Made by a program: the position numbers and the translations under genes | From: Desulfobacteraceae bacterium | Lineage (GTDB): Bacteria > Desulfobacterota > Desulfobacteria > Desulfobacterales > Desulfobacteraceae | NCBI GenBank assembly: GCA_003353855.1 | Contig: PIVS01000003.1 | Span: forward strand, 1-41,054 | Reading direction: 5' to 3' | Length of the DNA stretch: 41,054 nucleotides | Shown: one piece after another, positions 3,152-32,106 of the stretch | Numbering within the stretch: the stretch's first letter is position 1 | Layout: each line of letters begins with the position of its first letter | Notes under the pieces: model-generated | What the model saw: the letters and a program-made list of their open reading frames with translations, nothing else | Databases searched by the model: none | Told to the model about the DNA's origin: nothing

Positions 3152-3262
3152 TTATTCTTCCTCATATTCCCAGTACGGATATTGCTCCGGATTTTTTCCT
3201 TTTACTTCAATAACATCTGGGTTAAAGGCAGTATAATTTCAAATCCCATAACCCGGGTTCAT
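3152..3262 (-). pseudogene. Relic of a coding sequence with an in-frame TGA
   Basis: Reading on the minus strand from ATG at 3262 gives MNPGYGI, then TGA (3239-3241), then a 28-residue stretch from NYTAFNPDVIEVKGKN to YPYWEYEEE and a TAA at 3152. The composition (aromatic and acidic, no low-complexity bias) looks like the tail of a real protein, and a single change TGG to TGA would join the two parts. It lies just after the end of the PaaK-like gene. Selenocysteine is conceivable, but I see no convincing SECIS-like hairpin after the TGA. I do not recognise the family. Confidence 0.35.
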
Positions 3263-3291
3263 ATCAAGTAATTGAAGGGATGCTTAATAAA

Positions 3292-4605
3292 TTAGATATA
3301 CTTATGACCAAGCTTTGACATCAGGAATTGAGTCTTGCCTGCTGCGGTTTTTTCAAGCTCCGTGACGACTTTAATATCTATTTCCATTTCATCGCCGACT
3401 CTTTTTCTGAATGCTTTCATTATTTGGGCACCGGAATTATCATTAAAGGAGTCATCTATCACAACGTTTATATAAACATGATTCATTCTGTCCTGAACGA
3501 TTTGTGACATGATTACTCCATTTGCATTATCAATTGTGTGCTCCAAAACATTTCCAATAAGTTTTCCGTCAGCAGTCTCTATATAATCATTTTGCCTTCC
3601 GATAATTTTATTTACGATTCTGAATGGCCTTCCACATTTACATTGGAAGGGATTATCATCCATAACTACTGTATCGCCAATCCTGTAACGAAGCAACGGC
3701 ATTCCATAATTATAGAAACTGGTTCCTATAAGCTGACCTTCGCAACCGTTATCCAATACATTATCCTCATTATCAACAACTTCATGGAAGGCAAAATCCT
3801 CAATAAAATGTTTTTTATTATTGTTGCAGTCTGAAATCATTGCACTGCATTCATGGAGAGAATAGAAATCAAAAACCTTGCACCCATAAATACTTTCCAG
3901 CAATTCTCTTCTCCTGTCTGATAATGTCTCACCGTATACAATAATAGAATCAGGTAAATGCATGGCAATCCCTTTATTTAATGCAAATTGAGCCAACGTA
4001 AGAAGGGAAAAAGGATAACCATGGTAGAATTTTGGTTTAACTCTATTTAAAAAAGCAATGGCTTCAATACCTGCTTTCTCATTCAATTTATTGGAATCTA
4101 ACCGGTAATTGTTTAAAAGTCTCTTAAAATGGACCTTGCCCGTTTTGAAAAAGTAGCTTTTTGCACCAAAAGATTTTTTACCAAAAAAATACCCGGCCCA
4201 GTTGTAGCTCCTTAATAGAGCAGCATAGTAATTTGCTCTGGTAGAATGATCAATTATCATTTTTAAAGGTGTTCCTGTGGTACCGCTCGTAGTATCCCAG
4301 CTGATGCCATATTTATCAGCATTATCAGCAATAAATTCTTCTTGATGTGTTCTTAATGTTTCCTTATCTAAAATTGGAATCTTTTTCATATCCCCGCGAT
4401 TCATAAATGTTCCCGTATCGAATCCAATTGTCTTAAAAAGATTTCGATAATAGGGGACATTTTTACCGGCATGTCTCACAAGGCGTTGAAGCATAAGATC
4501 CTGGTAATTTTCCAGTCTCTTAGGACTCCACTTCTGACTCCTGAAATAAAACGGGATGCGTGTACTTAGTTTTAGAGCTATGTTTATTGTATCTAAAAAT
4601 TGCAT
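3292..4605 (-). CDS. PaaK/CapK-like AMP-forming adenylating enzyme
   Basis: A 437-residue member of the phenylacetate-CoA-ligase-like branch of the ANL superfamily; CapK-type proteins of this branch are common in capsule and O-antigen loci. The P-loop TTSGTTGTP is at residues 105-113. Later blocks are YGETLSDRRRELLE, FDFYSLHECSAMISDC, then PLLRYRIGDTVV and a short Cys-rich motif CKCGRPF, which in this family tends to sit before the GR hinge (IIGRQND). It presumably activates a carboxylic acid as an acyl-adenylate or acyl-CoA for attachment to a glycan; the acid is unknown. ATG 4605 has a strong GGAGG site. It lies 46 bases after the NeuD-like acetyltransferase gene, so the two are probably co-transcribed. 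The family assignment is firm and the role is inferred. Confidence 0.85.
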   Translation of the reverse strand: MQFLDTINIALKLSTRIPFYFRSQKWSPKRLENYQDLMLQRLVRHAGKNVPYYRNLFKTIGFDTGTFMNRGDMKKIPILDKETLRTHQEEFIADNADKYGISWDTTSGTTGTPLKMIIDHSTRANYYAALLRSYNWAGYFFGKKSFGAKSYFFKTGKVHFKRLLNNYRLDSNKLNEKAGIEAIAFLNRVKPKFYHGYPFSLLTLAQFALNKGIAMHLPDSIIVYGETLSDRRRELLESIYGCKVFDFYSLHECSAMISDCNNNKKHFIEDFAFHEVVDNEDNVLDNGCEGQLIGTSFYNYGMPLLRYRIGDTVVMDDNPFQCKCGRPFRIVNKIIGRQNDYIETADGKLIGNVLEHTIDNANGVIMSQIVQDRMNHVYINVVIDDSFNDNSGAQIMKAFRKRVGDEMEIDIKVVTELEKTAAGKTQFLMSKLGHKYI

Positions 4606-6365: not shown

Positions 6366-6513
6366 TATCTACCTTCTTGTTATAAATAATGATTGCCAAT
6401 AAATTTTTGTAATCGTGCTTTCTTCCAATTTGTTTATGAAAATATGAAGTTATTTAAAGATACTTTAAAAGACATGATCCAGATAAAGGAACATTTACAA
6501 TGGAATAATTTTT

Positions 6514-7206
6514 CTATAAACTTTTCATATAATTTCTAACATTAGGTCCTTCATTAAAAATAAGATCAATAATACTCACAGAATGTTCAAAAGGTGGAAA
6601 AAGTTGATTATATTCAGGATACCCCGAGTAATCCATGAAACTTAAAGCTATATTCTCCTTTTCAAATAACTCCTCATTAATATAACTCTTAGCAGCAGGG
6701 CCTGAAATATACTCAGTTGCAGAAGCCTGTTTACATAAGTCAACAAGCTTTTCTGTTTTTTCTCCTTTGAATTTATATTCCATTGAAAATGAAATCTTGG
6801 TTTTTATTCCGATTAATTGGCAGATCTTCATGATAAATCTATGGTTTATCCGGCTAAGTAGATTTTCATCACATTCAATATATAATTCTTCAAATTCATC
6901 CCGGTAATCTTTAAAATATGGAGCTTTAGAATAATTTTCAGTGATGAACCGCCAGTGTTTGCTATTCCAATCGATATCATCTATCTCTGTTTCCCTGATC
7001 TTTTGCAGGTATTTACCTTTTATTTTTACAGGTATTGTAAGCCATTTGAAACCATTTTTTGTCTTGATTTTATTTCTATTCCTCCAGTCTCTCTTTGTGT
7101 ATTGCATATCATCATAAAGGATAAATTCGTCAACAAAATTAATTAAATCAAAATATCCTTTCCAAGGGATATAATTAGATTGAACAATGGCGACTCTTTT
7201 ATTCAT
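6514..7206 (-). CDS. WbqC-like family protein
   Basis: A 230-residue soluble protein with the WbqC family signature at the N-terminus: AIVQSNYIPWKGYFDLIN, then FILYDDMQYTKRDWRNRNKIK, and WLTIPVK; SGPAAKSYI follows in the second half. WbqC-like proteins are found in O-antigen and capsule loci and are thought to act in sugar modification, but their reaction is not well established. ATG 7206 has a good GGAGAAATC leader. Placement between rfbB and a lipid-sugar glycosyltransferase, with an acetyltransferase and an adenylating enzyme close by, suits a role in building or decorating an amino sugar. Confidence 0.88.
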   Translation of the reverse strand: MNKRVAIVQSNYIPWKGYFDLINFVDEFILYDDMQYTKRDWRNRNKIKTKNGFKWLTIPVKIKGKYLQKIRETEIDDIDWNSKHWRFITENYSKAPYFKDYRDEFEELYIECDENLLSRINHRFIMKICQLIGIKTKISFSMEYKFKGEKTEKLVDLCKQASATEYISGPAAKSYINEELFEKENIALSFMDYSGYPEYNQLFPPFEHSVSIIDLIFNEGPNVRNYMKSL

Positions 7207-29674: not shown

Positions 29675-29914
29675 TCATGGTAGATCTGGATATACAGGAG
29701 AACTGCTCCATCTGCTGCTTCGCTCCCAGCCATATCGGTCTTCCCATCCCCTTCGTCTGTCCTTGATGGTTATACGATCTTCAGCCCCGGGATAGCCGGG
29801 GCCCATATCCAAAACCCGACGATCAACCGGGGATCTGCGGTCAAGAAGCGTTCTTTCTACATAAACATTTTCTACCTGGGCCTTTGCTTTTTTGTTTTGT
29901 ATTTGTTCCTTCAT
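29675..29914 (-). CDS. Small DRR-rich hypothetical protein
   Basis: A 79-residue very charged protein. The N-terminus is Lys/Gln-rich. A central block has three Asp-Arg-Arg repeats (TLLDRRSPVDRRVLD, later IKDRRRGWEDRYGWE), separated by GPGYPGAEDR. The C-terminus is Trp/Ser-rich (RSSRWSSSPVY). No signal or membrane segment is present. Small proteins with RRSxxDRR boxes are seen in many deltaproteobacteria, but I know of no function; an RNA-, DNA- or membrane-lipid-binding role is possible given the charge. A near-consensus promoter lies about 95 bases upstream (30016-30043), so expression is probably strong and constitutive. Confidence 0.7.
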   Translation of the reverse strand: MKEQIQNKKAKAQVENVYVERTLLDRRSPVDRRVLDMGPGYPGAEDRITIKDRRRGWEDRYGWERSSRWSSSPVYPDLP

Positions 29915-30052: not shown

Positions 30053-30427
30053 TTAGGGAAAAATCAATTTGTCCAGTATTAGGCCATAAAATTGATCATG
30101 GTCTGAACTAAAAACCCAGCCCAAATGGGTTTTGCAATCACGGCAGATGCCTATGTTCCAAAGATACCCCTTAAACCAGGAAAAATCAGAAAATGAGGGT
30201 GAAAGAAAGGAGCATCCTGTGGCAGCATTAAAACAACCGATCTCAAACACTTGTCCGTGTGGATTTGCAAAGGTATGGCAAAAGGCTTTTTCAATTTGTA
30301 TTTGACAGGCAGGATCGGTAATATGCCGGTGGCAATTTCGGCAGGTGATGATTGAATCTTCAAGGCTGGCTGGCTGAACAGCTTCTTTGGGCTGGATCTT
30401 TGATTCCTGTTTTGCAAAAAGATACAC
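30053..30427 (-). CDS. CULT-domain protein (bacterial cereblon-like)
   Basis: A 124-residue soluble protein made almost entirely of a CULT domain, the ligand-binding fold of eukaryotic cereblon. Zinc is expected to be bound by Cys29/Cys32 (CRNC) and Cys95/Cys98 (CRDC). The aromatic cage is intact: Trp84 (FSWFKGYLW), Trp90 and Trp104 (HLGWVF). Their spacings of 6 and 14 residues equal those of human cereblon (W380, W386, W400) and of the single-domain Magnetospirillum protein MsCI4. Phe106 takes the place of the fourth aromatic. FANPHGQVFEIGCF in the middle is also typical. The start is GTG 30427 with AGAGG upstream, 11 bases after the EI24-type gene, so the two form an operon. Bacterial CULT proteins bind uridine- and thalidomide-like compounds, but their natural role is unknown. 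Confidence 0.9.
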   Translation of the reverse strand: MYLFAKQESKIQPKEAVQPASLEDSIITCRNCHRHITDPACQIQIEKAFCHTFANPHGQVFEIGCFNAATGCSFLSPSFSDFSWFKGYLWNIGICRDCKTHLGWVFSSDHDQFYGLILDKLIFP

Positions 30428-30438
30428 CGGAAAACCTC

Positions 30439-31170
30439 TTATTGTTCTCGGTCAAGAACATACAGAGTTGCTCCCACCGGTGCAAAAGACAAAAACAGGA
30501 TATTCAGCCATGGAATAAGAAATAAAATGCCAAACCCAAGGTGGAATAATAAATTTCCCTTTAAAAAAGTAATCCTATTCACAAGTGGTATCATCCGCCT
30601 GGCCGGAATCAGATCAGTGTTGTCCCAGGCCAAAAACATACCGGCCACCCCGGAGGACAGTATAAAAATAAAAGGACTGATAGGCGTAAAAAGACCCGCA
30701 AGCATGATGACAAGGGTAATTAATACCGGCAGGATTGCCCGGGGTATTTCCTGGCGAATCAAATAGAAAAAAAACTGTAACCAGGGACCCTGATCAAATT
30801 GGACCTCATGTCCCAAAACAATTCGTTCTGTGATTCGTGACATGTAATCCATGATAAACACTCCAAAAAATAATTGGGCAATCAAATAGGAAATCAACAT
30901 GGCAATTCCGGCAAGCAAAAGAGACAAGAGCCATGCAGCAATATTCCATACATAGACAAGCCAACCACCTTCGGGTGCTTTCCATATCATGGCCAGAATT
31001 TGTTCATGCCAATAGAGAATCATTCCGGATAATAAAAGGCTTAATAAAAAAACGATAAAAAAACGCAGCAACCCGAGCATTAATAGTGAAGGGGTTTTTA
31101 GAGCCAGGGAAAAACCTTTAATATTATATTTGATACCTGAAAAAAATTCCATTTTTTTACCGCCTTCCAT
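30439..31170 (-). CDS. EI24/CysZ-like membrane protein
   Basis: A 243-residue membrane protein with about six hydrophobic segments and the EI24 (etoposide-induced 2.4/CysZ) family features: GIKYNIKGFSLALKTPSLLMLGLLRF at the N-terminus (my split: GIKYNIKGFSLALK then the helix), a long central amphipathic region MDYMSRITERIVLG, and LAWDNTDLIPARRM near residue 183. CysZ members import sulfate; other EI24-type proteins have no known substrate, so I do not assign one. ATG 31170 has AAGGA six bases upstream; ATG 31152 is an alternative. It is co-oriented and 11 bases from the CULT-domain gene. Confidence 0.8.
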   Translation of the reverse strand: MEGGKKMEFFSGIKYNIKGFSLALKTPSLLMLGLLRFFIVFLLSLLLSGMILYWHEQILAMIWKAPEGGWLVYVWNIAAWLLSLLLAGIAMLISYLIAQLFFGVFIMDYMSRITERIVLGHEVQFDQGPWLQFFFYLIRQEIPRAILPVLITLVIMLAGLFTPISPFIFILSSGVAGMFLAWDNTDLIPARRMIPLVNRITFLKGNLLFHLGFGILFLIPWLNILFLSFAPVGATLYVLDREQ

Positions 31171-31254: not shown

Positions 31255-32106
31255 ATGAAAATATATTATGTAGACGGAAAATTTGTTCCATCAGACAAGG
31301 CAGTGATTCCGGTTGACGACCTGTCAATTTTACGCGGTTATGGGGTGTGTGACATCATGCGGACCTATAAAGGCAAACCCTATTTTCTGGATGAACATGT
31401 CCTGCGCCTGGAAAATTCGGCCACAAAAGTTGGACTGTCCCTGCCCTGGAACCGGAAAAAAATTAAAAAAATTATTATTCAAACTCTGATCCATAACCCT
31501 GATATTGATGAAGCCAATATCAGGGTTATGATAACCGGCGGCTCCAGTACTGATTTTTTTACTCCCATGGGAAATCCCAGGCTCATTATCATGGTCACCC
31601 CCATAAAAAAACTGCCGGAATCATGGTATGATAATGGTGTAAAAACCATCACCATTCATCATGAGAGAGATTTGCCCGATGCAAAGGTAACTTCGTATAT
31701 ACAGGCTGCATTGGCCCTGGCAAAAGCAAAAGAACAAAATGCTGTGGAAGCGATCTACGTAAACCAAAGGAATGAGGCCCTTGAAGGAACCACGAGCAAT
31801 TTGTTTGCTTTTTTCAAAGACAGTTTAGTTACCCCGGATAGAAACGTTTTAAAAGGGATAACCAGAAGGGTTATTTTGTCCCTGGGAAATCGTTTTTTTA
31901 AGGTAGAGGAGAGACCTCTTAAGTTAGAAGAATTGTTCCGGGCAAATGAGGTGTTTCTCACGGGCACCAATAAAGGTGTTGTTCCGGTTATTCAGATAGA
32001 TGACAAGATCATCGGTCATGGGAAACCAGGAAAACACACAAAAACCATTATCCGGGCCCTGGACAAACACGTCCTTAATTTTATGGAAACCCAGCTTGAA
32101 AAATAA
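31255..32106 (+). CDS. Class IV aminotransferase (IlvE / D-amino-acid transaminase family)
   Basis: A 283-residue fold-type IV PLP enzyme. The N-terminus is IYYVDGKFVPSDKAVIPVDD. The Schiff-base lysine is Lys144 in DAKVTSYIQ, and Glu177 in EALEGTTSNLF binds the pyridine nitrogen. The C-terminal EVFLTGTNKGVVPVIQID holds the phosphate-side Thr/Gly residues. The family includes branched-chain aminotransferase, D-amino-acid transaminase and aminodeoxychorismate lyase. The length and the FLTGT block fit the first two, but I cannot choose between L- and D-substrates. GGAG lies about seven bases before the ATG. A perfect 16-bp inverted repeat (31492-31530) lies inside the coding sequence around codons 80-92. 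Confidence 0.9.
   Translation: MKIYYVDGKFVPSDKAVIPVDDLSILRGYGVCDIMRTYKGKPYFLDEHVLRLENSATKVGLSLPWNRKKIKKIIIQTLIHNPDIDEANIRVMITGGSSTDFFTPMGNPRLIIMVTPIKKLPESWYDNGVKTITIHHERDLPDAKVTSYIQAALALAKAKEQNAVEAIYVNQRNEALEGTTSNLFAFFKDSLVTPDRNVLKGITRRVILSLGNRFFKVEERPLKLEELFRANEVFLTGTNKGVVPVIQIDDKIIGHGKPGKHTKTIIRALDKHVLNFMETQLEK
31492..31530. repeat. Perfect 16-bp inverted repeat inside the aminotransferase gene
   Basis: CATAACCCTGATATTG (31492-31507) is the exact reverse complement of 31515-31530 (CAATATCAGGGTTATG) around the loop ATGAAGC. It encodes HNPDIDEANIRVM of the aminotransferase, so it must satisfy both the protein and the palindrome. The mRNA hairpin would be strong. A match this long is very unlikely by chance. 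Confidence 0.95.

Follow-up and report, generated by a model that had tools for sequence, protein, structure and literature searches.

A free-standing CULT protein with a conserved N-terminal tail, encoded beside an EI24/CysZ-fold membrane protein gene in one bacterial family

Thalidomide and most degrader drugs act on the ligand-binding domain of cereblon, a domain whose natural job is still being worked out. Its bacterial relatives have, to our knowledge, no known role, and we are aware of no in vivo ligand, partner or phenotype for any bacterial CULT (cereblon-like) protein. Such proteins have been established since 2015, "primarily in delta-proteobacteria" (PMC4287342). Among them is MsCI4 (MGR_0879, Magnetospirillum gryphiswaldense cereblon isoform 4; PDB 4v2y and others), which binds uracil, uridine and imide drugs (PMC4287342). 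Cereblon itself recognizes proteins carrying a C-terminal cyclic imide, which arises from backbone cleavage at Asn or from PCMT1 (PMC11974815).

This work describes a CULT gene in a window of 41,054 nucleotides (the whole stretch of DNA that was analyzed) from a member of the Desulfobacteraceae. The locus offers a culturable-family setting (Desulfobacter, Desulfotignum and Desulfobacula belong to the clade), in which a single-copy CULT gene forms a compact operon-like pair with the gene for an EI24/CysZ-fold membrane protein (Table 1). Between the stop codon of EI24 and the start codon of CULT lie 11 bases, in agreement with the preliminary description of this DNA, which had placed the CULT gene that far behind an EI24/CysZ-like gene. 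Both genes are genuine, with matches far beyond chance.

Table 1. Features of the CULT locus, in window coordinates
Feature	Coordinates	Strand	Details
DRR-rich ORF, 79 aa, downstream of CULT	29675..29914	-	Cluster in 19 loci, family-conserved
CULT (cereblon-like) protein gene	30053..30427	-	124 aa, GTG start; ORF, phmmer, predicted fold
CULT domain, residues 25-121	30065..30355	-	phmmer, AlphaFold2 model, fold comparison
Cage tryptophan W104 (human W400)	30116..30118	-	Invariant, 169/169 rows
Zinc motif CxxC, C95/C98	30134..30145	-	Invariant, 169/169 rows
Cage tryptophan W90 (human W386)	30158..30160	-	Invariant, 169/169 rows
Cage tryptophan W84 (human W380)	30176..30178	-	Invariant, 169/169 rows
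Zinc motif CxxC, C29/C32	30332..30343	-	Invariant, 169/169 rows
Linker, residues 10-24	30356..30400	-	Low conservation, predicted disordered (pLDDT); acidic in most homologues
N-terminal tail motif, residues 1-9 (MYLFAKQES)	30401..30427	-	Divergent copy of family motif hh[LCF][RK]
GAGG Shine-Dalgarno-like sequence	30435..30438	-	7 bases upstream of CULT GTG start; from sequence
EI24/CysZ-fold membrane protein gene	30439..31152	-	237 aa from conserved start; ORF reaches 31170; PF07264, fold
Class IV aminotransferase gene	31255..32106	+	Divergent from EI24; PF01063, E=3e-51

The CULT protein is a bona fide, well-preserved member of an already known family. The preliminary description had given it 124 residues, all four zinc cysteines and, at a spacing of 6 and 14 residues, the three cage tryptophans, and all of these elements were found at 30053-30427 on the minus strand; the tryptophan spacing matches that of W380, W386 and W400 in human cereblon. 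In the CULT family alignment, the complete set of seven residues is present in all 169 aligned rows, and the tryptophan cage is equally invariant in genomes with and without EI24. When PDB chains were searched with phmmer, the best match was MsCI4 (4v32; E=2.2e-19), and human, mouse and chicken cereblon were matched at E values of about 1e-9 to 1e-11. An AlphaFold2 model built from an alignment of the protein's own family (pLDDT 86) was overlaid on MsCI4, as the preliminary description had proposed. This comparison gave Z 19.6 and an rmsd of 1.0 over 100 residues, with the beta-tent and its inserted hairpin present in the model; against human cereblon, Z was about 17.

MsCI4 and the window's CULT protein are alike in several respects: both are single-domain proteins of about 124 aa, with the same zinc cysteines, the same cage tryptophans and a Phe two residues before the first of these (Phe82 in the window's protein), at about 36% identity. 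They differ in that the host of MsCI4 belongs to a different phylum and in that the window's gene is coupled to EI24. The thalidomide-binding domain of eukaryotic cereblon likewise shares the zinc and cage residues and the tryptophan spacing, but the human protein has His378 in place of Phe82, and the window's protein comes without cereblon's LON domain, DDB1-binding region and ubiquitin system. No LON or DDB1-binding fusion is encoded in the 124-aa ORF, which consists of the CULT domain and a 24-residue N-terminal extension. Secretion with a signal peptide, as in animal CULT proteins, seems unlikely, as inspection of the protein by eye revealed no signal-like stretch.

CULT genes were detected in 126 of the 194 genomes sampled from the window's order, nearly always as a single copy, and in 13 of 148 genomes in a phylum-wide sample. 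The window's own 5.9-Mb genome carries one copy, and the named close relatives with CULT (Desulfobacula, Desulfotignum and Desulfobacter) are all Desulfobacteraceae. A mobile or phage origin was rejected, since searches of 72,556 plasmid records, 50,697 phage records and viral contigs returned no CULT matches. Given this result and the single copy in nearly all carriers, CULT behaves as a resident housekeeping gene.

Our preferred reading, which is tentative and which we rate at somewhat below an even chance, is that a free-standing cytosolic CULT protein reads cyclic imides and docks a partner through its tail, the pairing with EI24 being a lineage-specific operon. In this model, a zinc-pinned beta-tent, free-standing in the cytosol, holds a three-tryptophan cage, which would bind a cyclic-imide (or uracil-like) group. 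The most plausible ligand in vivo would be a C-terminal aspartimide or glutarimide on damaged or cleaved proteins, as for cereblon, and the MsCI4 structures matched by the CULT model include complexes with thalidomide, deoxyuridine and glutarimides. A flexible, usually acidic linker joins the domain to a short N-terminal tail; the tail, in turn, probably docks the ligand-bound protein onto a partner, candidates for which we infer below by analogy. Within the Desulfobacteraceae, EI24 would be co-transcribed with CULT. Against this reading, no neighbors common across families and suggestive of protein repair or proteolysis were seen at the CULT loci, the window's own tail is degenerate, and the strict tail pattern is confined to fewer than half of the CULT lineages (see below). 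Each of the order's 194 genomes has homologues of the imide-forming methyltransferase PIMT (protein-isoaspartate methyltransferase), at no more than 12 matches per genome; PIMT co-occurrence was therefore uninformative about the cyclic-imide model, the enzyme being found in genomes with and without CULT alike.

The conserved N-terminal tail carried on an acidic linker is a new, apparently undescribed feature of bacterial CULT proteins. In many CULT proteins of the order, a pair of hydrophobic residues precedes [LCF][RK], and x-P-x-[DE] often comes next, with many tails reading LFRVP or CLRVP. Among 91 dereplicated N-termini, the motif reached 963 bits versus 644 ± 12 for shuffled sequences, a comparison in which shared ancestry is uncorrected and in which N-termini follow the start codons as called, such that untranslated sequence may be part of some segments. 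The strict pattern was present in 91 of 168 loci, where shuffles gave 11 ± 3; counted by CULT lineage, it occurs in 39 of 87. At the key position of the tail, R or K is found in 83 of 91 homologues, and this column is far more informative than those of the linker, which in the family contains 25 to 27% D+E. Conservation of the tail extends to the CULT proteins of families without a linked EI24. Within the window's genus, identity is 45% for the tail, 32% for the linker and 71% for the domain. The window's own tail is a degenerate copy of the motif, and residues 11 to 21 have pLDDT values below 50 in the AlphaFold2 model. We regard the tail as the most useful new lead from this analysis: it provides a concrete handle for the partner of a bacterial cereblon-like protein.

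One candidate for such a partner is an AAA+ protease. The tail might tether CULT to the ClpX N-domain or to Lon, with CULT delivering imide-marked proteins for degradation. By analogy, the layout resembles that of the ClpXP adaptor SspB, in which a disordered acidic stretch links a small reader domain to a terminal peptide of two hydrophobic residues and R—the E. coli protein ends in an acidic linker and ALRVVK, and LFRVP and CLRVP tails invite comparison with this peptide. The SspB peptide binds the zinc-binding domain of ClpX whatever its position in the chain (PMC12373786). Moreover, in cereblon, CULT and a LON domain are fused in one chain (PMC4287342). The likeness to SspB is one of layout, as its fold is unrelated to that of CULT, and its peptide is C-terminal where the CULT tail is N-terminal. 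The SspB domain (PF04386) was found neither in the window's CULT protein nor in any of 39 relatives searched; its absence from these relatives speaks for the adaptor reading of CULT, and for the same reason a direct comparison of the tail with the SspB peptides of the same organisms was dropped. Against the proposal, the motif resemblance is short and lies at the opposite terminus, the window's own tail is degenerate, and no protease gene was recognized among the recurrent CULT neighbors. On balance, such tethering is unlikely, though delivery of damaged proteins to a protease by CULT is a possible outcome of tail docking as we infer it. That free-standing bacterial CULT proteins might generally act as protease adaptors, their tails handing imide-ended proteins to ClpXP or Lon, is an extension by analogy that we place at the lower end of the same low estimate. 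If it were true, the damage-degron job of cereblon would be older than ubiquitin and would have been carried by an SspB-like architecture.

Comparably unlikely is the reading of CULT as a uracil or uridine sensor tied to pyrimidine or nucleic-acid damage metabolism. The binding of uracil and uridine by MsCI4 (PMC4287342) and the match of the CULT model to the MsCI4-deoxyuridine complex in the PDB are consistent with it, but pyrimidine genes are not prominent among the recurrent neighbors of CULT, and it is the C-terminal cyclic imide that is documented as the degron for cereblon (PMC11974815).

The remaining readings concern the EI24 gene, for which the more conserved start is an internal ATG at 31152 rather than the ORF start at 31170. 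The encoded protein matches PF07264 (E=2.1e-16; 61.1 bits, compared to a Pfam gathering cutoff of 32) and is predicted to share its fold with the CysZ sulfate permeases 6d9z, 6d79 and 3tx3. The predicted fold aligns with 6d9z at Z 17.4 and an rmsd of 3.8 over 226 residues, while the best unrelated chain reaches Z 7.9. The two proteins nevertheless differ, with only about 17% identity. The sulfate-binding motif of CysZ is GLR(R), located between H1 and H2 (PMC5967866); the aligned region of EI24 reads GLLRF, with a single invariant Arg, in a register that is uncertain. In a survey of the sulfate transporters of sulfate reducers, TSUP models were used to search for the "CysZ" class, and the text makes no mention of EI24 by name (PMC5840216).

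To place the pairing in its family, we surveyed 34 genomes of the family besides the window's own. Both genes were present in 27, EI24 alone in 4 (G023, G025, G029 and G032), neither in 3 and CULT alone in none. Of the 27 genomes with both, 22 have the genes side by side on the same strand, 3 have them 1.2 to 1.5 kb apart and 2 carry them on separate contigs. In several genomes the EI24 stop and CULT start codons overlap (ATGA or TAGTG), so translation of the two genes is probably coupled there. The family pattern points to a possible one-way dependence, in that CULT was never seen without EI24 (27/27) and EI24 was seen without CULT. In G023, G025 and G032, EI24 is directly joined to its usual downstream genes with CULT missing; in G022, an intact EI24 block (EI24, dodecin, DRR protein and epimerase) lacks CULT, which is on another contig; and in G011, G013 and G021, one or more ORFs lie between the two genes.

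Outside the family, this type of EI24 is present in 42 of 120 CULT genomes of the order and absent from the other 78. In six of the 42 genomes with both, the genes share a contig; in the remainder the two fall on separate contigs, of which many are short. The only near pair (1/42) is in G221 (locus L154), where the genes are divergent and 2.7 kb apart, with EI24 at 3249-4007 (-) and CULT at 6456-7058 (+). EI24 is the most recurrent CULT neighbor among 168 nonredundant CULT loci, and all but one of the loci with this neighbor fall in one clade. On the CULT tree, most of whose deep forks are unresolved, linkage to EI24 takes four changes to explain, and a single origin followed by losses is compatible with it.

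The EI24-CULT pairing is thus real, confined to one bacterial family and separable. As far as could be found it is also undescribed: our literature search retrieved no paper on it, as the preliminary description had remarked. The recurrence that this description had suggested surveying holds within the family and fails beyond it.

The same description had gone on to suggest a transported or membrane-derived ligand. In its fuller form, this reading joins the two in a functional transporter/receptor unit: CULT would sense or sequester a cyclic imide or a uridine-like compound, and EI24 would transport that compound or govern how much of it is present. It can draw on the adjacency and stop/start overlaps within the family, on the presence of EI24 in every family genome with CULT, and on the frequency of CULT among EI24 carriers outside the family (42/49; odds ratio 4.7, Fisher P=2e-4, a figure that ignores relatedness and is therefore not relied on). 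Of the 120 CULT genomes outside the family, however, 78 lack this EI24 and a single one of the other 42 has it nearby, EI24 has been kept after loss of CULT, and CULT has been kept after relocation. In addition, the modeled fold of EI24 resembles that of sulfate permeases, a match that suggests an anionic substrate more than an imide and lends no support to imide transport. The earlier suggestion is not borne out by these surveys, which reject EI24 as an obligate partner of CULT, and we consider a transporter/receptor unit quite improbable. Because EI24 has conserved neighbors of its own and survives without CULT, the pair is better described as a lineage-specific operon, and the survey makes EI24 a weak guide to CULT function. 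A role for CULT as a cytosolic regulatory subunit that binds the EI24 channel directly and gates it in response to ligand is equally improbable, the translationally coupled gene order and a tail that could plausibly serve as a docking peptide being offset by conservation of the tail in families without a linked EI24 and of EI24 in family genomes without CULT.

Several other genes recur around CULT and EI24. An elongation factor G gene lies within 5 genes of CULT in 18 loci from 10 CULT lineages (L193, L010, L082, L050 and others; at position +1 or +2 from CULT); its standing as an ancestral CULT neighbor was set aside, as two different types of elongation factor G are mixed among these loci. 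In at least one family genome, CULT is found beside an acyl-CoA carboxylase beta subunit-like gene, away from the intact EI24 block (L163, from G022:C116, and L043). The class IV aminotransferase gene occupies position -2, on the opposite strand, in most EI24 loci, and its linkage to EI24 is nearly as steady as that of EI24 to CULT. Downstream of CULT or EI24, 19 loci encode a DRR-rich protein of 79 to 80 aa (DRRSPVDRR ... WEDRYGWER; e.g., L032:8520-8762), which is without a Pfam match. Finally, in several Desulfobacula-type genomes, the gene directly 3' of CULT encodes a dodecin, and where CULT is missing the dodecin gene directly follows EI24 (e.g., L008:1131-1340 on the minus strand and L162:2880-3089).
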